Source: a virus | Virus record (IMG/VR): IMGVR_UViG_3300022602_000433 | Span: 1-23,663 of that record | Strand: one strand, 5' to 3' | Length of the DNA: 23,663 nt | In this document: one piece after another, positions 9,480-18,521 of the stretch | How the letters are laid out: every line of letters begins with the position of its first letter | Numbering within the stretch: position 1 is the stretch's first letter | Made by a program: the position numbers and the translations under genes | Notes under the pieces: model-generated | Databases searched by the model: none | What the model was told of the DNA's origin: nothing | The model's input: only the letters and a program-made list of their open reading frames with translations

Positions 9480-9512
9480 GGATCACTCTCCCCTGTGTGC
9501 TTGAATTTTATC

Positions 9513-9520
9513 TATTTATA
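9513..9520 (-). promoter_or_regulatory. T4-type late promoter for the 331-aa fibre (TATAAATA)
   Basis: This is an exact match to TATAAATA on the minus strand within the divergent 53-nt gap between the fibre gene and the plus-strand Bug/TctC gene. It would give a leader of about 28 nt carrying the GGGGAG ribosome-binding site of the GTG-started fibre gene. On the plus strand the same bases contain TATAAT (9517-9522), but that lies too close to the plus-strand ATG (9533) to be a convincing -10 box for it. Confidence 0.68.
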
Positions 9521-9522
9521 AT

Positions 9523-9526
9523 GGAG
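9523..9526 (+). promoter_or_regulatory. Ribosome-binding site deciding the Bug/TctC start
   Basis: GGAG lies 6 nt before ATG 9533 and marks it as the start, in preference to the in-frame GTG 9497 or ATG 9521. Starting at 9533 also puts the signal peptide at the very N-terminus (MKRILLFLAFLLN). Confidence 0.7.
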
Positions 9527-9532
9527 CAAATT

Positions 9533-10495
9533 ATGAAAAGAATACTGTTATTTTTGGCTTTTTTATTGAATTGTAGCTTGACTTACGCCGACAACCTTAG
9601 TATAATTACTCCGTCCCCTGATGATAGCTATACGATTAATGCTCGAATACTAGCCAAGTATCTTACCAAACATCTACCGAATCATCCTGACGTAATAATC
9701 CAGTCAATGCCTGGAGCGCAGAGTCTTGTTGCTGCTAACTGGCTGTATAACATAGCCCCCAGAGATGGATCGGTAATCGCCACATTACAAAAAGAAATAC
9801 CTTTCGATGGACTACTGGGTGGAAAGGGAGTGCAGTTTGATCAAACCAAATTCACATGGCTAGGGTCAACTTCCGATGGACGAAAAGATGCTGTGATGCT
9901 CTGGGCGAATGAACCTAATTTTCGTGACGATTTTATTGTTGGCGCTGAATCTCCAACAGCTGGAAATATGGCTGTGTTTCTTAATAAAGTGATGGGAACC
10001 AAATTTAAAATTGTAACAGGTTATGAAACAACAGGCGCGAATCGATTAGCGTTTGAGCGAAAAGAAACAGATGCCGTCATTTATAGTTTGGCTGGAGTTA
10101 AAACACAGAAACCAGATTGGCTCAATCCCGATTCTGCGATCAAACCATTCCTTCAATTCGGTAATGGAACAAATAGATTACCTGAATACTCAGATATTCC
10201 TACGCTAGAAGAAAAAGTAGATAGCAATTACTATCAATTGATCGAGGCTTTTGAAACGCAATTTATTTTACTCCGCCCGTTCTTAGCTCCGCCGAATCTA
10301 CCAACCGATAAAGTTACTGAACTACGCAGAGGATTAGAAGCAGCAGCAAATGATTCAGATTACATAGCCGAAGCAAAGAAAGCTAGAATCGATGTTAATT
10401 TTATACAAGGTGAAAGAGCTGAGATGATTGTTGACTTTCAATCAAGAACAGCTCAAAAAATTATAAACCAGCTGAAAGAAATATATCATGATTGA
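9533..10495 (+). CDS. Bug/TctC-family periplasmic solute-binding protein (phage-encoded)
   Basis: The 320-aa protein has a typical Sec signal peptide: basic MKR, hydrophobic ILLFLAFLLN, then SLTYA as a probable signal peptidase I site near residue 19. The mature part follows the TctC-like subfamily well: ARILAKYLTKHLPNHPDVII, MPGAQSLVAANWLYNIAPRD, GLLGGKGVQFDQTKFTWLGS, LNKVMGTKFKIVTGY, and C-terminal RPFLAPPNLPTDKVTELRRG. This family binds carboxylates and similar solutes for tripartite tricarboxylate transporters (TctABC). No membrane subunits lie in the window, so it would have to work with host TctAB or have another role. It is on the strand opposite to the late genes and heads a three-gene island. 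Family assignment is firm; substrate is unknown. Alternative starts at 9497 and 9521 are less likely. Confidence 0.87.
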   Translation: MKRILLFLAFLLNCSLTYADNLSIITPSPDDSYTINARILAKYLTKHLPNHPDVIIQSMPGAQSLVAANWLYNIAPRDGSVIATLQKEIPFDGLLGGKGVQFDQTKFTWLGSTSDGRKDAVMLWANEPNFRDDFIVGAESPTAGNMAVFLNKVMGTKFKIVTGYETTGANRLAFERKETDAVIYSLAGVKTQKPDWLNPDSAIKPFLQFGNGTNRLPEYSDIPTLEEKVDSNYYQLIEAFETQFILLRPFLAPPNLPTDKVTELRRGLEAAANDSDYIAEAKKARIDVNFIQGERAEMIVDFQSRTAQKIINQLKEIYHD

Positions 10496-11177
10496 ACATA
10501 AACTGTTTCCTACGCTTGTTACAGAACATCTCTATCCTGACCATGCAGAATTTAAGAAAAAGTTTGCTAAGAACATATTCAAACATATGACACCAGAAGG
10601 ATACTCGAGCGAGCTAACGAACCATGTAACATTACACCACGAAAAAGCTTTTGAGCCATTGTTTAAATTTGCCACAGAAGCAGCGAAAAAGCATTGCGAA
10701 CGATTGCATATTGATACAGAAAAATTTGACTTTAACATAATTAAAACTTGGATGAATATAAAAAAGAGCGCCGAAACACCAAAGCACATGCATGGGGATG
10801 CGCATATCTCATTTTCATACTATGTTAATATGCCACCAAATTTTGCTTGGCCAATACGTTTTTACAACTATGACAATCGACACGAACCATATCCAGGATC
10901 TATTGTACATAATAATACCAGTGGTATTTGGGATGAATTGAACTCTGGAAGTTGGCAATTTGTACCTAGTGAAGGTAGTCTTTTTGTTTTTCCATCTAAC
11001 CTTGTTCATGATACAGTTGGTAATACATCATGGAATATTCTTGAGCAGGGTGTAACAAAACAATCATTGATGGATTATCGCCATTGTTTAGCAGGTGATA
11101 TTCTTATGACTTACAAAAAGAAAACACCAAGTCACCTTGGCGTACAACCAGTATCAAATTGGAGGAATTTCGAATGA
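10488..11177 (+). CDS. Putative 2OG-Fe(II) oxygenase, type 1
   Basis: The product is 229 aa. The opening HKLFPTLVTEHLYPDH resembles the 'LFPTPV' start of the phage and bacterial putative 2OG-Fe(II) oxygenase family (TIGR02466-like). A double-stranded beta-helix core follows: FNIIKTWMNIKKS, then KHMHGDAHISFSYYVNMP with a possible H102-x-D104 metal pair, and PSEGSLFVFPSNLVHDTVGN with the distal His174. Together these could supply the 2-His-1-carboxylate iron site. Such enzymes hydroxylate a substrate using 2-oxoglutarate and O2; the substrate cannot be told from sequence. The gene overlaps the Bug/TctC gene by 8 nt and the next oxygenase by ATGA, so all three are coupled. Related genes are frequent in T4-like aquatic phages. 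Confidence 0.75.
   Translation: MIEHKLFPTLVTEHLYPDHAEFKKKFAKNIFKHMTPEGYSSELTNHVTLHHEKAFEPLFKFATEAAKKHCERLHIDTEKFDFNIIKTWMNIKKSAETPKHMHGDAHISFSYYVNMPPNFAWPIRFYNYDNRHEPYPGSIVHNNTSGIWDELNSGSWQFVPSEGSLFVFPSNLVHDTVGNTSWNILEQGVTKQSLMDYRHCLAGDILMTYKKKTPSHLGVQPVSNWRNFE
11161..11165 (+). promoter_or_regulatory. Ribosome-binding site of the second oxygenase gene
   Basis: GGAGG lies 8 nt before ATG 11174. It decides the start in favour of ATG 11174 over the in-frame TTG 11159, which lies upstream of this site. The ATG overlaps the preceding gene's stop as ATGA. Confidence 0.75.
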
Positions 11178-11755
11178 TATATAATGATCCATTTGAACGT
11201 GAAGTGATTACCTATCCTTATGTTTGGCAAGATAATATCTTTAGCGAACAAGAATTAAAAACGATAATTGATTATTGTGATTCAAAAGGAACGCAAGAAG
11301 CTACGACATTTGCTGGACTACAGCCTGACCTACGTAAATCAGAAATAAAATTCCATCAAAGAAACATTGACAATGGCTGGATATTTGACAGATTGAATAC
11401 GTTGATCGAATTCATTAATGAAAAATACTATCGATTTGATCTAAATGGATACAACTATTTTCAGTATACAAAATACAATAAAACAGGTAAATATGGCTGG
11501 CACATGGACACGCATTTGGGCGCTGATAATAGAGATCAAACTCGTAAGCTGTCCTTATCCATACAACTCAATGATGACTATACTGGTGGAGAGTTTATGA
11601 TCAATGAAGGTGAAGAAAAGAAAGCTTTTACTGTACCAATGAAAAAAGGAAGAGCTGTTTTATTCCCTTCCTTTTTGATTCATCGTGTTTCGCCAATTAA
11701 AAAAGGCATTCGTAAGTCTTTGGTTGTTTGGGTTCAAGGTCCAAAGTTTCGTTAA
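11174..11755 (+). CDS. Putative 2OG-Fe(II) oxygenase, prolyl-hydroxylase/PiuC-like
   Basis: The 193-aa protein has the prolyl 4-hydroxylase-type fold signature: YGWHMDTHLG with iron ligands H110 and D112, then RKLSLSIQLNDDYTGGEF, then AVLFPSFLIHRVSPI with distal His170 and GIRKSLVVWVQGP with R180 as probable 2OG carboxylate anchor. The spacing and the 'LS.siqLnd.Y.GGef' strand match the P4H/PiuC superfamily. Phage members are common, with substrates mostly unknown; protein (prolyl) or small-molecule hydroxylation are options. It is the last gene of the plus-strand island and ends in TAA 11753-11755, which overlaps the stop codon of the convergent minus-strand gene. All catalytic residues appear present. 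Confidence 0.83.
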   Translation: MIYNDPFEREVITYPYVWQDNIFSEQELKTIIDYCDSKGTQEATTFAGLQPDLRKSEIKFHQRNIDNGWIFDRLNTLIEFINEKYYRFDLNGYNYFQYTKYNKTGKYGWHMDTHLGADNRDQTRKLSLSIQLNDDYTGGEFMINEGEEKKAFTVPMKKGRAVLFPSFLIHRVSPIKKGIRKSLVVWVQGPKFR

Positions 11756-12168
11756 GTGTTAGAAGCCAAAGCGTTTGTTGTATGGATTAAAAACATTTGA
11801 CCATTAGAAAATTCAACGTATTTGGAAATAACAATTGTACTACCAACATTAGAAATGGAAGTCGTCGACGACTTCCATGCAGCTGTTTTGGCACCAATCA
11901 TAGCAAACATAGCATTGACATATTGATTGTTTGCATCTGATATACTTTTAGAAAACAACAAGGCATTTTTATCTGTGTCGATAGTGTATGTTTGATGCTG
12001 AGTGTTTTCATTATCCATAACACTAGTATAGCTATTACTCACATAGCCGTTTTGAACTAAAACGACATTGGTTTTGAACGCCTCAATAATTGCCTTTTCG
12101 CTATCAGTATAAGCTGGCAAAAATTGATCATTAGCTTGTTTAACTATTATTCTGTGAACTTTTGGCAT
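11752..12168 (-). CDS. Hypothetical protein, 138 aa, after the Bug/TctC gene
   Basis: I do not recognise this protein. It starts MPKVHRIIVKQANDQFLPAY, contains a possible helix (DSEKAIIEAF), then mostly beta-type Ser/Thr/Asn-rich sequence (VSNSYTSVMDNEN, STIVISKYVEFSNGQMFLI). It has no signal peptide or membrane segment. The composition and ISKYVEFSNGQMFLIHTTN ending are compatible with a small virion or tail protein rather than an enzyme, but that is a guess. It is the last gene of the long minus-strand run, preceded by GAGAG and a 9-nt gap. Its coding sequence carries a perfect 24-bp palindrome (11855-11878), and its stop codon shares TTAA with the converging oxygenase gene. Confidence 0.6.
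   Translation of the reverse strand: MPKVHRIIVKQANDQFLPAYTDSEKAIIEAFKTNVVLVQNGYVSNSYTSVMDNENTQHQTYTIDTDKNALLFSKSISDANNQYVNAMFAMIGAKTAAWKSSTTSISNVGSTIVISKYVEFSNGQMFLIHTTNALASNT
11855..11878. repeat. Perfect 24-bp palindrome inside a coding region
   Basis: The half-site ATGGAAGTCGTC is followed directly by its reverse complement, with no mismatch and no spacer. It is centred on GTCGAC between 11866 and 11867. The pairing stops at 11854/11879. As RNA it could fold into a hairpin of about 10 bp from either strand, and as DNA it could bind a symmetric dimer. It lies about 100 nt inside the minus-strand gene from the convergent junction. On the plus strand a TTTT run follows 7 nt after it, so a role as a terminator for the plus-strand island is possible but weak. 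Confidence 0.9.
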
Positions 12169-12177
12169 GTTTGCTCT

Positions 12178-13107
12178 CTAATGTTTGTCTCCATATACCT
12201 TATTTAGGTAACTCAACTCGTTTTTAACAGTTGCTTCTGTATCACTTGGATCCATACAATATGACATATATGGAGCTCTAAGTTCTGCTACTGTTTTAAA
12301 ATCAGGGCTAGCGCATGCTAATTTCATATCAGCCAAAAAGGTTTTAGCAAACTCTGGCTTTTCTTTGGGGATAGCAAATAACAGAATAGACTGCAGATTG
12401 AAGTCATTAAATCCGATTTCCTTACCTGTCGGCGCATCTGGAAAAGTTGTCATACGCGCATCCGAGGAAACAAGAATAGCTCTTAAACTTGTCATATCAG
12501 GTAATGTAAAAACAGTATAATCGATCTCTTTATTCTGAATAGCTAAAACAATTTCTGGTACTGTTTTATATTGTATCTCTTCGACTTTATCTTCTAGCCC
12601 ATAATGTTTTAAGAATATCTGATTCATCATTTTTGCGGCTGGAGCAACAAGAGTTCCGCCTTCATAGGACTTTGATCTACTCTTAATAAAAGCTACTAGA
12701 TCATCTACGTTTTTGATTGGCGAATTTGGCGCTACCAAAATACCAAGTGTGTTTTTACCGATTCCTGTGCTGAAGATAAAGTCATGATCGCGATCAATAC
12801 CAATATCTGGATTATTGATTCTGTTAAATGTTATTGTAGAAACGCCAGTAAAGAAAACAACATCCTGATTTTCTTTTGCTAATGCCTTTGCTCTTAAAGC
12901 AGCAGCATCACCAGAACCACCCATTGTAACAGCAAACTTATACTCGCGCTGGTTTTGAACTGTGTTAAGTATTTGTGTAATACCTATACCGATTTGACCG
13001 CCAGATCCTACAACTGGTAATGCGCTGACGATTTCAATCTGTTCGGCTGCCATGGCTGTTGTAGATAACAACAACGAGAGCGCGAGTATTTTAATTCCAT
13101 TTAACAT
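12178..13107 (-). CDS. Bug/TctC-family solute-binding protein, second subfamily
   Basis: The 309-aa protein has a Sec signal peptide (MLNGIKILALSLLLSTTAMA, cleavage likely after AMA at residue 20). The mature domain shows family hallmarks: GSGGQIGIGITQILN (the loop that normally grips the substrate carboxylate), LGILVAPNSPIKNVDDLVAF (120-140), and YKTVPEIVLAIQNKEIDYTV (180-199), corresponding to the usual 'YKG..pal.dLlgGqvDv' region. Two cysteines (C265, C284) near the C-terminus could form a periplasmic disulfide. It is only distantly similar to the plus-strand copy at 9533, so the phage carries two different subfamilies. It is coupled by a 17-nt overlap to the upstream PP-loop gene with AGGAG as ribosome-binding site. 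The substrate is unknown, and a host TctAB partner would be required for uptake. Confidence 0.82.
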   Translation of the reverse strand: MLNGIKILALSLLLSTTAMAAEQIEIVSALPVVGSGGQIGIGITQILNTVQNQREYKFAVTMGGSGDAAALRAKALAKENQDVVFFTGVSTITFNRINNPDIGIDRDHDFIFSTGIGKNTLGILVAPNSPIKNVDDLVAFIKSRSKSYEGGTLVAPAAKMMNQIFLKHYGLEDKVEEIQYKTVPEIVLAIQNKEIDYTVFTLPDMTSLRAILVSSDARMTTFPDAPTGKEIGFNDFNLQSILLFAIPKEKPEFAKTFLADMKLACASPDFKTVAELRAPYMSYCMDPSDTEATVKNELSYLNKVYGDKH

Positions 13108-14266
13108 TCAATTCTCCTATAATATATGAGTCAGTTGGAATATGATTCGATAGCATGTTTTTATTATCGATCTTTCTGTACTTGTTTAGATAGAAATTTT
13201 GTTGTTCCCTTAAAGCATCAGCGGCATTGTTTTTTTGTATCAAAGATACAAGCTTAATTTCTGGAGATATTTGTAAAGATTTTGGTGCGCTGAATAAACC
13301 AGAATGCCAATAGTAGTAAATATACTTAGTGTATTCTCTGGAGTAATTATGCATTGGTCCATGAGATCTAACATCTGGTTTTAATGGAGATTGATTAACA
13401 AAATTAAGATAAAGTTGTTTGTCATTTTCGAAAGCTTTCTTTAATACATGAGATTGTTTTATCGGTATAAGTGGAGCATCTTTACTCCAGAAGAAATTTT
13501 CAATTGTGTAAATTGGATCAATTTCGTTTTTACGAATAAGTTTGTCTCCAGTAAGAGCAGCATCATTAAAACTGAAAGTTAATTTTTTGTTTTTTACCTT
13601 TAAGTTTGGTTTTTCGACGCCACGAATAAACCCAGTTTTGTTCGTTTTTTTAATGTACAAATTATTATAATGATGTTGATAGAAATTTCTTGCGTATGGC
13701 GTCATTTGTATTACAAAACTAGCTTGTGTTCTTTTTCCATTAATTCCCATAAAAGTAAATTTGTTATTCAAAATATCATCAATAAGATTATGTGACATAT
13801 CGATGGAACTAATCTTAGTTTTTGGACTTAATTGTCTAACCTTTTCTAGTGTAGGAACACAAACCATTTCATATTCTAAAAATTGATTAACACCTTCAAT
13901 ATCTTTTAGAAAATTACGATCAAATCGAGCCATTGCTTTTTCGTAATGAATTACTTGTATTTCATCAATGAAGATGTTGTTTTCTAAAAATGTATAAAGT
14001 ATTTCGTGAGAGTCTGATCCTCCAGAATAACTGAGGATAAGGTAATCATAAGTGTCGCGAAGCTGTTGCGCTCTTTGTACATAAAGTTCTTTTAGAGAAA
14101 ATGGAGGCTCGACAGTCCAATCAATCGATCTAAAAACTTTTTCATTGAATTTAAAAACAACAGGCGGGCAGTCAATCTTATTGATTATAAAATTGTTCAT
14201 GTCATTCAGAGCTTCTTCTCGATCATAGTATATTTTATGATCGAATATATAATATCCGTTAATCAT
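13091..14266 (-). CDS. PP-loop ATPase-like protein A (asparagine-synthetase/QueC-type fold)
   Basis: The 391-aa protein carries the PP-loop nucleotide-binding motif SGGSDS at 81-86 in YDYLILSYSGGSDSHEIL, followed by NNIFIDEIQVIHYE. This is the HUP-domain signature of N-type ATP pyrophosphatases (asparagine synthetase B C-terminal domain, QueC, TilS, ThiI and relatives), which adenylate a carbonyl or carboxylate before attack by an amine, ammonia or sulfur. An N-terminal 50-residue extension (MINGYYIFDHKIYYDREEAL) and a long C-terminal region (about 200-390) do not match a named family I can recognise. There is no N-terminal glutaminase cysteine and no CxxC zinc cluster as in QueC. It is clearly paralogous to the gene at 15508-16545. 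It overlaps the neighbouring PP-loop gene by 8 nt. Confidence 0.72.
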   Translation of the reverse strand: MINGYYIFDHKIYYDREEALNDMNNFIINKIDCPPVVFKFNEKVFRSIDWTVEPPFSLKELYVQRAQQLRDTYDYLILSYSGGSDSHEILYTFLENNIFIDEIQVIHYEKAMARFDRNFLKDIEGVNQFLEYEMVCVPTLEKVRQLSPKTKISSIDMSHNLIDDILNNKFTFMGINGKRTQASFVIQMTPYARNFYQHHYNNLYIKKTNKTGFIRGVEKPNLKVKNKKLTFSFNDAALTGDKLIRKNEIDPIYTIENFFWSKDAPLIPIKQSHVLKKAFENDKQLYLNFVNQSPLKPDVRSHGPMHNYSREYTKYIYYYWHSGLFSAPKSLQISPEIKLVSLIQKNNAADALREQQNFYLNKYRKIDNKNMLSNHIPTDSYIIGELNVKWN

Positions 14267-15074
14267 TTTTCCACTTATCTAAATAGCTCAAAAAATCCTC
14301 TCTTCTACCAAGAGGAAAAGAATAACCGACCGAAAGATCTCTGCCAGATAAAATATGTTTTATGATTTTTCTAAATTCGACTGGGAAATTATACTTCATA
14401 ACTGGTCGATAATCTGTGTTATATAACTTATGTTTGTATTCATCAATCGGTATTTCCTCTATCGCTTCTACCATCGCATACGTAAGTTCTACAGTATACA
14501 TGAAGAATGGTATATTATACTCCTCGCCTACCAATGCTTCATTGATAAAATCCCACTCATTCATTCCTGGGAATATACCAGTATGATCATTATCAATCAT
14601 ATGTTCGCCAATAATAAGAATACCGCTATTATCTTTTGCGTATTTACAGGCGACTAATCCTGGAACAGAATATATTCCATGACAGTTTAAATTGGCAAAA
14701 ATTTCATTGTTGTATGATCGAATTATATCATAATCTGATAATTCAATAATGATTGGTTCAATGTTTAATTTGCGACAGGAATGGTGAGCGTATGCTGCTT
14801 CGTTTTCGTTACCAGATGTTTTTACAATAATCGGTTTGATAGGTAAGTTATTTTCTGCGAATACATGCAAAACAAAATCAGAATCAGCTCCGCCAGATAG
14901 CGCTAGGAATACAGATGGATATTTGTCGGAGATCATTTTCGCTGTCATATTAGCAGCAGAACGAAAGTCCATATGTTTAAAAGAGTATGGGTTCAAATCG
15001 ACTTTGAAGTCAACTTTCTTATCAGTAATTCTATCTTTTAAATTACTCTTAACCCAGTAATTATGTGTTGTCAT
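14259..15074 (-). CDS. PP-loop ATPase-like protein B
   Basis: The 271-aa protein has the PP-loop SGGADS at 60-65 in YPSVFLALSGGADSDFVLHV. A second conserved strand reads LPIKPIIVKTSGNENEAAY, with a possible Glu/Asn substrate contact, then CRKLNIEPIIIELSDYDIIR. This is closer to the canonical ATP-pyrophosphatase core than the two flanking paralogues and lacks their N-terminal extension. It has no glutaminase domain and no zinc-cysteine cluster. The start is taken at ATG 15074, which overlaps the upstream stop as TAATG with GGGA before it; an in-frame TTG at 15089 would add five residues but lies inside the upstream gene with no advantage. The function is probably AMP-forming activation of a substrate carboxylate or carbonyl; the substrate is unknown. 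Confidence 0.72.
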   Translation of the reverse strand: MTTHNYWVKSNLKDRITDKKVDFKVDLNPYSFKHMDFRSAANMTAKMISDKYPSVFLALSGGADSDFVLHVFAENNLPIKPIIVKTSGNENEAAYAHHSCRKLNIEPIIIELSDYDIIRSYNNEIFANLNCHGIYSVPGLVACKYAKDNSGILIIGEHMIDNDHTGIFPGMNEWDFINEALVGEEYNIPFFMYTVELTYAMVEAIEEIPIDEYKHKLYNTDYRPVMKYNFPVEFRKIIKHILSGRDLSVGYSFPLGRREDFLSYLDKWKND

Positions 15075-15511
15075 TATAATCCCATCCAACTACCAAATAT
15101 CATATCCCAGACTGGAGTGAACACGCCGTAGTTTTTGTTGGGTTGTTCATGGTGTATTAGATGCCATTTACCAGATGTAAGGAAAGGATACAGATTGATC
15201 TTACTATTATGCTCAATCGCCTCTTGTATATAGCCCGCCCAAATATAATAAAAAACAGCAATCCACCATTGATTGGTTATAAAGGAAAAAATGATTGTCG
15301 GTATAACTTCGGTCAGCCACTGATCGATAGTGCTGTTAATCGAGTCAAAATAAAGGAAGAAGTTTTTCCAGTTTAATCCCTGAACAGTCTGTTGCGTTAC
15401 CTGTTTGTGATGATCAGCATGATAATATCTCATAAATGGAATAACGTGTGCTGCTCTATGTGTTGTATAGAGTAGTAAAGTCCAAAGTATGAAATAGAGT
15501 ACATAGCTCAT
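15074..15511 (-). CDS. Fatty-acid-hydroxylase superfamily di-iron membrane protein
   Basis: The 145-aa protein has the histidine-box pattern of the FA_hydroxylase / sterol desaturase superfamily: H18-x3-H22 (THRAAH), H31-xx-HH (YHADHHK), H101 (EHNS) and H117-xx-HH (KWHLIHHEQPNKNYGV), ending FTPVWDMIFGSW as is typical. Hydrophobic segments at about 1-16 and 65-95 would embed it in the inner membrane with the di-iron centre on the cytoplasmic face. The superfamily uses O2 to hydroxylate or desaturate acyl chains, sterols, carotenoids or aldehydes. At 145 aa it is near the short end for the family, but all His boxes are present. It lies between two PP-loop genes with ATGA and TAATG overlaps, so it is part of the same transcript. 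The substrate is unknown. Confidence 0.8.
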   Translation of the reverse strand: MSYVLYFILWTLLLYTTHRAAHVIPFMRYYHADHHKQVTQQTVQGLNWKNFFLYFDSINSTIDQWLTEVIPTIIFSFITNQWWIAVFYYIWAGYIQEAIEHNSKINLYPFLTSGKWHLIHHEQPNKNYGVFTPVWDMIFGSWMGL

Positions 15512-16545
15512 AGGTAATATGGTCTGGTAAAGAATGATATCGGTTTACTCGGCGGAGCGTATTGTTTAATCGTATGTAATCCTCTAAGGAACATATCATA
15601 CATCCCGCTGTCTTTACTATTTAACATAAACATATCTCTTGCAGAGATCGAAGTTGTAGTTGATTTTTTAGACTTAAACACCAGCGGATTCTTAAGATTA
15701 TACACTGTTCTGTTAATAATATCTTCTCGCTTAGAGGATAATATAGCAGGAGGAATTGCGTTGTCTTTTATTCCGTCATATAATCTTTTCATTACATGAG
15801 CTTGTTTTACCATTATCTTTGTGTAATATGGATCAGTGTAGAAATTGATACGTGTAAAGTTTTCATCGAAATAGTTAGCGCCATAGTCGTTGATTCCTAG
15901 ATCGCATATTCTAACTCTTGGTTTATCAAACCCATGCTCGTAACCAGTTTTTTCAGCACCCATTATCCATGCTGTTTTCTTATTGTTACCTTTACCAGCA
16001 AAGCGTTTAAAGTCATACCACCAAAGATTATGAACCGATTTGAACCCACCAATGTATTTGCTCCACTCATCTTTATATGTTTTAATAAGAGTAAAGTTGT
16101 TGGGGTCTCTGAACCAGTCAGTATAATCGTATACGGATATCTTGGTGTTTGGTAAGTTAAATTGATTCAATGTTGGCTTGGCGTTGAAAAATATATCGCC
16201 ATTGTGATTCTCATCTGAACCCTGATATGAGTCCTGAGAAAAAGCGCCAACCATTACAATCTCATCTATATGAATGTTATTGTAATAGAATGTTTCTAGG
16301 ATATTAGTTGAGTCTGAACCGCCAGAATAACAAAGAATAACATACTCGTACTCGTCGCGAATCTGCTGAGCACGTTCTTTATACAATTCTTCTAGCGATT
16401 CTGTTGGCTCTGTTTTCCAATCTATCTTTAGGAACTCTTTGTCGTAGTAATAGAAAAAAATATTTTTGCCAGCCTGTTTAGCAGCATAAGCGTCTAATTG
16501 AGTTGGGTAAATTGTTTTTTCAGTATCATAATAAAAGATAGACAT
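15508..16545 (-). CDS. PP-loop ATPase-like protein C (paralogue of A)
   Basis: The product is 345 aa. The N-terminal half parallels protein A residue by residue: IDWKTEPTESLEELYKERAQ and QIRDEYEYVILCYSGGSDST here, against DWTVEPPFSLKELYVQRAQQ and LRDTYDYLILSYSGGSDSHE there. The PP-loop SGGSDS is at 74-79. Near the C-terminus a K-(Q/S)-(A/S)-HV-(M/L)-K motif (VKQAHVMKRLYDG) is also shared (IKQSHVLKKAFEN in A), perhaps a substrate or phosphate contact. This points to a duplicated enzyme family with diverged specificity. There is no glutaminase domain, zinc ribbon or transmembrane segment. It is coupled by TAATG to the small upstream gene (16545) and by ATGA to the hydroxylase gene (15508-15511). 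It is probably an ATP-dependent ligase, amidotransferase or thiolase-type enzyme of unknown substrate. Confidence 0.72.
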   Translation of the reverse strand: MSIFYYDTEKTIYPTQLDAYAAKQAGKNIFFYYYDKEFLKIDWKTEPTESLEELYKERAQQIRDEYEYVILCYSGGSDSTNILETFYYNNIHIDEIVMVGAFSQDSYQGSDENHNGDIFFNAKPTLNQFNLPNTKISVYDYTDWFRDPNNFTLIKTYKDEWSKYIGGFKSVHNLWWYDFKRFAGKGNNKKTAWIMGAEKTGYEHGFDKPRVRICDLGINDYGANYFDENFTRINFYTDPYYTKIMVKQAHVMKRLYDGIKDNAIPPAILSSKREDIINRTVYNLKNPLVFKSKKSTTTSISARDMFMLNSKDSGMYDMFLRGLHTIKQYAPPSKPISFFTRPYYL

Positions 16546-16958
16546 TAGTTCTTAAGATTTTTCAACAATTCCTCGACATCAGCTTCATCAATAGCAGCTG
16601 GTGTGATTGGATTAACGATTTTAGAAACTTCGTCTCCAGTTTTATGAGAAGTTTGTCCAACCAAAGCTTTAACATGATCTATATTTGTATCTGTATTTGG
16701 ATCACGAACTGCTTCGATTTTCTTTAACCATTCGTACGGAGCATGCGAAACAAGCAATTTATCTAAGTCATCACCTTTTTCTGGCGGAACAGATAAATTG
16801 ATCGCTACGTCTGTACGACATCTTACTGGCGTTCCATCTGGATTTCTATTAGCATCGCTTGCTAATGCTTCTTCAGATAATACGTCTGTCCAGTAGCGAG
16901 CAACAATTAAGTGATCGTCTGGCCAAACTTCAATAATTTTGTAATGTAAGTTTGTCAT
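16545..16958 (-). CDS. Hypothetical protein downstream of collagen-like fibre
   Basis: This is a 137-aa, acidic, soluble protein. The N-terminal half, LHYKIIEVWPDDHLIVARYW with NRNPDGTPVRCRTDVAIN, has the look of a small beta-domain seen in phage proteins encoded beside fibres. The second half is helical (APYEWLKKIEAV, AIDEADVEELLKNLKN). I do not recognise a defined family. Position directly after the collagen-like fibre gene with ATGA overlap (16955-16958) suggests a fibre assembly chaperone or accessory subunit, by analogy with the small genes that follow fibre genes in many phages. Its own stop overlaps the start of the first PP-loop gene, linking structural and enzyme genes in one run. 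Confidence 0.62.
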   Translation of the reverse strand: MTNLHYKIIEVWPDDHLIVARYWTDVLSEEALASDANRNPDGTPVRCRTDVAINLSVPPEKGDDLDKLLVSHAPYEWLKKIEAVRDPNTDTNIDHVKALVGQTSHKTGDEVSKIVNPITPAAIDEADVEELLKNLKN

Positions 16959-18058
16959 GAGATTGGTCCGTTTCTTGTTCCTGTTGATATGTAAGCTGTT
17001 ATGTTTGAATTTCCTGTGATTGCGTTACCTTGTGAACCAGTTGGACCTGTTGGACCCTGAGAACCTGTTGGACCTTGTGGACCAATTGAACCCGTTGGTC
17101 CAGTAGGACCTACTGATCCAGCGCCACCACCAGAACCACCAGCATATCCACCAGTTCCTGTTGCGCCAGCGGCTCCTGCAGAATTCAATGATCCACCAGT
17201 ACCACCTGCGCCACCTGCGCCTCCGTATCCGTCGCCAGCACCAGCTCCGCCGCCACCGCCACTAGTGAAGTTACCACTAGCACCGCCAGCATTACCAGCG
17301 CCACCAGTTCCTGGGGGCGTACCGCCTCCGCCGCCTCCACCACCGCCTCTGGCTTGTGTCTGTCCAATTCCTTTACCGTAGTTAACGTGCGACCATCCGC
17401 CGCCTCCGCCGCCTCCGCCGCCACCAGGACCTCCTGGACCTCCAGCTCCACCAGGACCTCCTGGACCTCCAGCTCCACCAGGACCGCCTGGACCTCCAGT
17501 ACCACCTGTACCACCAGTAATTGTTGTTACGTTATTGAGATATAAAAAAACATTTGAGTTTGTTGGAGCAGCAAAACCTGCGCCACCAGTACCACCAGTA
17601 CCGCCTGTTGCGCCAGTACCACCTGTACCACCTGTACCACCTGTTCCGCCAGTGTAACCTATGCTCCCAGGAGAACCACCACCACCAACACTACCACCAC
17701 CAACACCAGTTGGTGAAGCTCCACCAACGCCACCAGCGCCGTAAGATCCAGCACTTCCCGTAGAACCTGGAGCTCCTGTCGCGCCTGTTGTTCCAGTATT
17801 ACCAGTGCTACCAGTAACACCTGTAGCGCCTGTTATTGTATTTGAATTTTGAACGTAAAGATATGAACCGCCAGTCCAGCCAGTTCCTACATCAAATGCA
17901 GGTGTTGTGTTAACTGTACCAGAAACAGTAGCATTGATAAACGCCAATACGTTAACACCGCCGACTGGCGAACCAGCAGCAGTATACAGGTTAACATTAT
18001 TAGCAGGAGTGTTAATGTTAACAATCCGAGTATTTCTGTTGATAAAGTTAACGAACAT
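16955..18058 (-). CDS. Collagen-like glycine-rich tail fibre protein
   Basis: The 367-aa protein has a short beta-rich N-terminal domain (MFVNFINRNTRIVNINTPAN to about 75) and then long Gly-x-y stretches: GATGVTGSTGNTGTTGATGA, three copies of GGPGGPGGA or close to it, glycine-only runs, and a C-terminal GPTGPTGSIGPQGPTGSQG segment. Such repeats form trimeric collagen-like rods in phage fibres. Between the rods are glycine-rich blocks resembling the other adhesins here. In the GGPGGPGGA block proline sits in the Y position, the usual substrate site for prolyl 4-hydroxylation; in the C-terminal block it is in X. AGGA precedes the ATG. It heads the run that continues into the enzyme cassette. 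Confidence 0.82.
   Translation of the reverse strand: MFVNFINRNTRIVNINTPANNVNLYTAAGSPVGGVNVLAFINATVSGTVNTTPAFDVGTGWTGGSYLYVQNSNTITGATGVTGSTGNTGTTGATGAPGSTGSAGSYGAGGVGGASPTGVGGGSVGGGGSPGSIGYTGGTGGTGGTGGTGATGGTGGTGGAGFAAPTNSNVFLYLNNVTTITGGTGGTGGPGGPGGAGGPGGPGGAGGPGGPGGGGGGGGGGWSHVNYGKGIGQTQARGGGGGGGGGTPPGTGGAGNAGGASGNFTSGGGGGAGAGDGYGGAGGAGGTGGSLNSAGAAGATGTGGYAGGSGGGAGSVGPTGPTGSIGPQGPTGSQGPTGPTGSQGNAITGNSNITAYISTGTRNGPIS
17421..17501. repeat. Three tandem 27-bp repeats in the collagen-like gene
   Basis: Units are 17421-17447, 17448-17474 and 17475-17501. The first two are identical and the third differs at two positions. Each encodes GGPGGPGGA (the last copy ends in G instead of A) on the minus strand. 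The period is a multiple of three, so copy-number change by slippage would lengthen or shorten the rod without a frameshift. Confidence 0.9.
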
Positions 18059-18513: not shown

Positions 18514-18521
18514 TATTTATG
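18514..18521 (-). promoter_or_regulatory. Possible late promoter before the 143-aa structural gene (CATAAATA)
   Basis: CATAAATA on the minus strand matches 7 of 8 positions of TATAAATA. It lies in the 24-nt gap directly after the stop of the 18522-18953 gene. The predicted leader is only about 11 nt and barely includes the AAAAGG ribosome-binding site, which weakens the call. If real, it would be the nearest promoter upstream of the collagen-like fibre and the enzyme cassette. Confidence 0.42.

Follow-up and report, generated by a model that had tools for sequence, protein, structure and literature searches.

What might three PP-loop proteins and a membrane-type hydroxylase be doing side by side in the tail-fibre operon of a virus? 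The question is raised by a stretch of 23,663 nucleotides (nt), positions 1 to 23,663 of IMG/VR virus record IMGVR_UViG_3300022602_000433 (hereafter the window), for which an earlier note made from the letters alone had placed such a cassette at 13091-16545 on the - strand. All four open reading frames (ORFs) are present as placed, and we refer to the PP-loop proteins as C, B, and A and to the hydroxylase as H (Table 1). That the cassette is a functional unit is well supported by its recurrent co-occurrence, its coupled gene junctions, purifying selection, and its late-promoter context. The same evidence partly sustains the earlier suggestion of a late-expressed pathway, with late expression supported but unproven. 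As to what the unit does, we assign a probability of about 0.5 to the reading that the run is a late-expressed, virus-specific biosynthetic module that would combine ATP-dependent carboxylate activation with C-H oxidation.

Recurrence, gene order and selection

With C, A, H, and B as queries, a scan of 2.9 million viral contigs yielded 86 groups once contigs that overlapped or were nearly identical had been merged. Single-protein searches with A, B, and H returned few relatives, and alignments were required. Co-occurrence was counted separately for each query, which limits selection bias, and only in loci with enough flanking sequence. Among the 23 non-redundant loci found with C, B was present in 20, H in 19, and A in 13. 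Loci found with H carried B in 44 of 47 cases, and the 49 loci found with B carried H in 32 and a Rieske oxygenase in 9. The junctions were 10 nt or shorter in 22 of 23 C-H pairs and in 37 of 38 H-B pairs. The common order was D-C-H-B-A-TctC, and the alternatives D-H-B-C and C-B-H were also seen. Since the same genes stand in the same order elsewhere, the cassette is not a product of chance. The gp23 capsid genes of the long carriers fell into two score classes, approximately 450 to 510 and 325 to 330 bits, with the lower class including a 348-kb and a 337-kb contig whose B genes are remote members of their family; the cassette is therefore not restricted to one close clade. The earlier note had held that recurrence in unrelated phages would favor a functional unit, and C-H-B was indeed found in tens of non-redundant viral contigs spanning both capsid classes.

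Selection was estimated by comparing the window to a near relative (locus L004). The ratio of nonsynonymous to synonymous substitution rates (dN/dS) was lowest for H (0.03), followed by C (0.05), B (0.09), TctC (0.13), and A (0.19), with D and S at 0.29 to 0.30. Purifying selection on C, H, and B is thus strong.

In the window, the - strand run is ordered fibre, D, C, H, B, A, TctC, S. Its genes overlap by 4 nt (fibre/D), 1 nt (D/C), 4 nt (C/H), 1 nt (H/B), 8 nt (B/A), and 17 nt (A/TctC), and only TctC and S are separated, by a 9-nt gap. The previously reported overlaps of 1 to 8 nt were thus measured across C/H/B/A, with the start of B moved to the ATG at 15074. This codon, rather than the TTG at 15089, is probably the start because the relatives begin with MATxNNW and because it forms a TAATG junction with H. 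The G+C content of the cassette was 33%, compared to 39% for the structural genes.

PP-loop proteins, the oxygenase slot and TctC

The PP-loops read YSGGSDS in C, LSGGADS in B, and YSGGSDS in A. The S-G-G-D-S columns were invariant in the aligned relatives (34 for C, 31 for B, and 21 for A), with the strict SGGxDS motif unmatched in one divergent A-like ORF (L035). The loop is thus retained across the aligned A, B, and C sequences, as the intact nucleotide pocket on which the earlier proposal hinged would demand. AlphaFold models of C and B had predicted local distance difference test (pLDDT) values of 92 and 94.5, respectively. The top VIA match of both was human ASNS, with a Z of 11.5 for C (273 aligned, 6.2 A) and a Z of 14.8 for B (243 aligned, 3.6 A), the latter over nearly the whole length of B, and asparagine and beta-lactam synthetases headed the lists for both proteins. 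A Foldseek search with the C model was weaker, with no match below 1e-3, and the nearest viral structure models to the PP-loop proteins were unnamed proteins of uncultured phages.

Profile searches with B matched NAD synthetase 3p52 (E 1e-5) and TtuA 3vrh (E 2e-5), carbapenam synthetase weakly, and also weakly Asn_synthase, NAD synthase, and QueC. Searches of PDB chains with sequence profiles of A and C gave no relevant match. The PF00733 score of B was 17.7 bits versus a gathering threshold of 21, A and C were unmatched by this family, and none of the three proteins passed the family-profile cut-off of QueC, TilS, ThiI, or WbpG. When B or C was aligned directly by sequence with Escherichia coli AsnB, the similarity was too weak for catalytic residues to be placed. 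A and C matched each other over 346 columns in a profile-profile comparison (E 2.5e-53) and were 35% identical over 256 residues. Since only B reaches known enzymes by sequence, the fold of A and C is taken from the C model, and the PP-loop (HUP-class) fold is thus assigned to C and B by model and to A through profile homology to C. No glutaminase was recognized in any of the three, which are too short to contain one and start with MSI, MTT, and MIN, and no Cys close to the N terminus is conserved in their relatives. A, B, and C are hence predicted to be asparagine-synthetase-type synthetase domains without glutaminase, C and B from their models and A by its homology to C. Of the enzymes with which the earlier note had proposed to compare them, the AsnB type stands, while QueC, TilS, and ThiI do not, the fold being nearer to asparagine and beta-lactam/carbapenam synthetases. 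The PP-loop chemistry proposed there agrees with the intact loops and with a modeled fold compatible with ATP-dependent carboxylate activation.

H matched Pfam family FA_hydroxylase (PF04116) with an E value of 5e-16, and nine His residues (H18, H22, H31, H34, H35, H101, H117, H120, and H121) were invariant in 24 relatives; both findings bear out the His boxes noticed earlier. The slot between C and B in the mapped loci held H in 20 cases, a Rieske oxygenase in 4, and a radical-SAM gene in 1. Of the groups with B, 53 had H only, 10 Rieske only, 1 both, and 13 neither, making H and Rieske nearly exclusive (Fisher p 9e-6, a value that serves as a guide only, as the groups share ancestry). This exchange within one slot points to C-H oxidation of the PP-loop substrate or product as a shared step, for which the replacement by unrelated C-H-attacking enzymes is our best hint.

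The TctC/Bug gene adjoined A on the same strand for 40 of the 56 A genes of the relatives, and 22 of 23 A-TctC junctions were 10 nt or shorter. In genomes with two A-TctC pairs, the subtypes agreed in 44 comparisons versus 13, although these are not independent. The mirror-tree correlation of A and TctC was 0.65, not above that of other gene pairs (21-member set), so the case for their co-evolution comes from the two-pair genomes. Of the 49 groups with A, 26 had an S-family gene near it, and such a gene was present in 3 of the 37 groups lacking A. Neither TctA nor TctB was found in the window, and Pfam confirmed a full TctC-TctB-TctA set in L136 alone (9752-12388), with PP-loop, Rieske, radical SAM, and ATP-grasp genes as its neighbours. 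The A-TctC pair may couple carboxylate transport to carboxylate activation.

Genome site and probable late expression

In the relatives, the layout is VrlC, fibre, D, cassette, O2/O1/Bug2, gp13, and gp14. As judged from this gene order, the site is the host recognition cluster of T4-like phages, a hypervariable island described for pelagimyophages, which carry lipopolysaccharide (LPS) genes there (PMC7029224). Among cultured phages, the Sinorhizobium phages of the phiM12 group had the nearest terminases (approximately 59%), followed by XG4, Melnitz, and Mosig. Cultured Mosig has other metabolic genes at its host recognition cluster, and among the clusters of Melnitz, Mosig, XG4, and phiM12, 2-oxoglutarate (2OG) oxygenases were found only in Mosig and A, B, C, or H in none by profile. 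A tblastn search with B, C, H, and TctC of 50,697 phage records yielded nothing, and no relative of C or H was detected in 84,980 prokaryote species genomes by a short-peptide-pattern method that could miss distant ones. No paper on such a gene combination was found in a literature search. This agrees with the earlier note, which did not recognise the combination from a described phage system, but metabolic cargo at the host recognition cluster is in itself not new, such an island having been described already (PMC7029224).

Table 1. Features of the cassette and its surroundings in the window
Feature	Coordinates	Strand	Basis
T4-type late promoter core ATAAATA ahead of run	18514..18520	-	Motif placement
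Collagen-like (Gly-rich) fibre, near run head	16955..18058	-	Translation; 4-nt overlap with D
D, small protein between fibre and cassette	16545..16958	-	Conserved neighbour; immediately 5' of C in 24 mapped loci
C, PP-loop protein, 345 aa, predicted asparagine-synthetase-like synthetase domain without glutaminase	15508..16545	-	SGGSDS, AlphaFold model
H, membrane-type di-iron hydroxylase, FA_hydroxylase family, 145 aa	15074..15511	-	PF04116, His residues
B, PP-loop protein, predicted asparagine-synthetase-like without glutaminase, 271 aa from ATG 15074	14259..15074	-	Profiles and model
A, PP-loop protein, 391 aa, distant paralogue of C	13091..14266	-	SGGSDS; profile-profile match to C
TctC/Bug-type substrate-binding protein, signal-peptide-like start, partner of A	12178..13107	-	PF03401 E 2e-12
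S, small protein, 138 aa, 33-member family occurring near A-TctC	11752..12168	-	Family membership
Bug2 (secreted), O1 and O2 (two 2OG-Fe(II) oxygenases), convergent flank	9497..11755	+	O1 PF13759, O2 PF13640

Of the six ATAAATA motifs found in the window, five are on the - strand immediately 5' of structural genes, and one of these (18514-18520) precedes the run; the number of motifs is not above chance, and it is the placement that is informative. Of 104 such motifs in 29 related loci, 53 were 5 to 70 nt upstream of a start, compared to 6.4 expected. The late expression proposed earlier is supported by this T4-type placement, which falls short of proof. Cotranscription with the fibre, TctC, and the small genes would fit the coupled junctions and the late promoter motif ahead of the fibre. 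The ATAAATA scan of the window revealed no late promoter motif on the + strand for the Bug2-O1-O2 block, which is probably a separate unit from the cassette and whose convergent arrangement is kept in many relatives. Within the cassette, late motifs also stand immediately 5' of S-family genes (L011:10200, L046:7465, L129:6561, and L168:9688 and 12203, numbered in the orientation of the motif scan), which suggests that S is needed in larger amounts.

Such islands hold other cargo, including amidoligase, ATP-grasp, P450, fatty acid (FA) desaturase, Trp halogenase, and SPASM radical SAM genes. An Amidoligase_2-type gene was seen in the islands of L020, L022, L024, L031, L033, and L118, often right after B, and a tryptophan-halogenase-family gene (L110:3136-4308; PF04820, E 3e-22) lies two genes 5' of an A-TctC pair. 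On the 348-kb contig, a single run (L090:5834-12934) comprises H, B, and A together with two FA desaturases and a cytochrome P450. A porin-like gene (L131:11564-12469) occurs in a contig with C-Rieske-B; we take it to resemble Burkholderiales porins, a possible hint of the host. CsgG-like genes (type VIII secretion) lie beyond Bug2 in L013 (9824-11747), L014, L022, L026, L041, and L048, and a 225-aa protein with repeats judged by eye to be curlin-like comes after csgG. CsgG-like genes are known in pelagimyophages, from which CsgA and CsgB were reported missing (PMC7029224).

A candidate pathway, its alternatives and its relation to known systems

Carboxylate activation by A, B, and C together with oxidation by H is, on the predicted folds, the likely chemistry. 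B and C would adenylate a carboxylate with ATP and hand it over to an amine or ammonia, like beta-lactam synthetase and the lasso cyclases, which use a substrate amine in place of glutamine. H would hydroxylate (or desaturate) the same hydrophobic or membrane-held substrate. Outside the inner membrane, TctC would capture a carboxylate that a TctAB-type carrier would then take up, and A would activate this TctC-delivered carboxylate as a second building block. The product would most likely be an oxidised amide, either small or attached to the envelope, that is made while virions assemble. Among the groups formed by natural-product members of the asparagine synthetase family are lactams, lasso rings, C-terminal amides, and nitriles (PMC13060819).

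Several findings weigh against this pathway. Some C loci (L007, L018, and L021) have neither H nor B, so C can act without them. Most loci are without TctA and TctB, and TctC could be a hitchhiker. LarE, NadE, and tRNA thiolase folds also score well for B, which leaves room for sulfur or nucleotide chemistry. The glutaminase domain (PF13537, GATase_7) was absent in ten long relatives, and every carrier contig is uncultured.

Among other explanations, it is unlikely, though less so than those that follow, that the enzymes modify the fibre or another virion protein post-translationally, with A, B, and C forming amides or lactams and with H and the 2OG oxygenases hydroxylating collagen-like repeats. 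The fibre, D, and C genes overlap and have a late promoter in common, asparagine-synthetase-like enzymes act on peptides in pathways for ribosomally synthesized and post-translationally modified peptides (PMC13060819), sister islands contain SPASM radical SAM and amidoligase genes, and in several loci a late motif belongs to the S-family gene itself, as would be expected of a virion protein. However, H looks membrane-bound, the Rieske, P450, and desaturase neighbours indicate small hydrophobic substrates, and the TctC proteins bear export signals. A membrane-type hydroxylase, desaturases in sister islands, and a location where pelagimyophages have LPS genes (PMC7029224) would also suit a change of the host surface against superinfection, by amidation or hydroxylation of LPS sugars, lipid A, or lipids, as presumed for the glycosyltransferases of the island. 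We doubt this rather more, as the cassette has no glycosyltransferase or sugar gene and gave no uronate- or lipid-specific match above cut-off.

Ordinary metabolic help, in which the PP-loop proteins would supply the host cell with asparagine, NAD, or a modified tRNA base, is improbable. The weak B matches to Asn_synthase, NAD synthase, TtuA, and QueC would fit, but no PP-loop protein has a glutaminase or exceeds a curated-family cut-off, three divergent copies stand together alongside an oxygenase and TctC, and bacterial relatives of C or H were not found in the genome scans. It is more improbable still that the genes are unrelated cargo kept together by phage common descent alone: the island is hypervariable (PMC7029224) and co-inheritance inflates co-occurrence, yet H and Rieske are swapped in the same slot, A-TctC pairs are repeated together, and C, H, and B are reordered among phages of two gp23 score classes. 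DNA hypermodification was set aside, as no known base-modification gene adjoins the cassette, which lies in the late structural region.

Metabolic genes of marine and freshwater phages are usually taken as borrowed host genes that aid host metabolism. Here, the pattern-based scan of approximately 85,000 prokaryote species genomes found no relative of C or H, yet the set is frequent, keeps its gene order, and is under strong purifying selection. If the biosynthetic module is real, phages would run a chemistry of their own late in infection, and the pairing of A with TctC would tie carboxylate uptake to carboxylate activation. More tentatively, T4-like phages might possess a modular virus-specific pathway of glutaminase-free ligases and exchangeable C-H oxygenases, with a phage TctC redirecting host carboxylate uptake, that makes a compound or surface tag which the host does not make.

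Compared to AsnB/ASNS, beta-lactam synthetase, CarA, and the lasso cyclases, A, B, and C share the PP-loop fold, and the short N-terminal parts of B and C align to the end of the glutaminase domain; they differ in having no glutaminase or N-terminal Cys, approximately 7 to 12% identity, and no family match above cut-off. By analogy with beta-lactam synthetase and lasso cyclases, we infer that they may form a lactam or amide with a substrate amine. H shares its His boxes and PF04116 with the FA_hydroxylase superfamily (ornithine lipid hydroxylase OlsE, sterol desaturases, and the CrtZ type), but is only 145 aa long and scores 16 bits versus a cut-off of 475 for NCBIfam OlsE. The window TctC (PF03401) resembles that of the tripartite tricarboxylate transporter, whereas TctA and TctB genes are not nearby. 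The host recognition clusters of pelagimyophages and cyanomyophages likewise lie between VrlC and the gp13/gp14 neck genes and carry fibres and metabolic cargo, but that cargo consists of LPS genes and radical SAM cassettes, with asparagine synthetase and TctC unmentioned (PMC7029224). Biosynthetic gene clusters of phages and a cyanophage halogenase, as cited in PMC10452541, are likewise phage-borne enzymes of a secondary-metabolism type; the clusters as given there are rare and mostly in temperate phages, whereas the present cassette is widespread and is located among the structural genes of T4-like phages.

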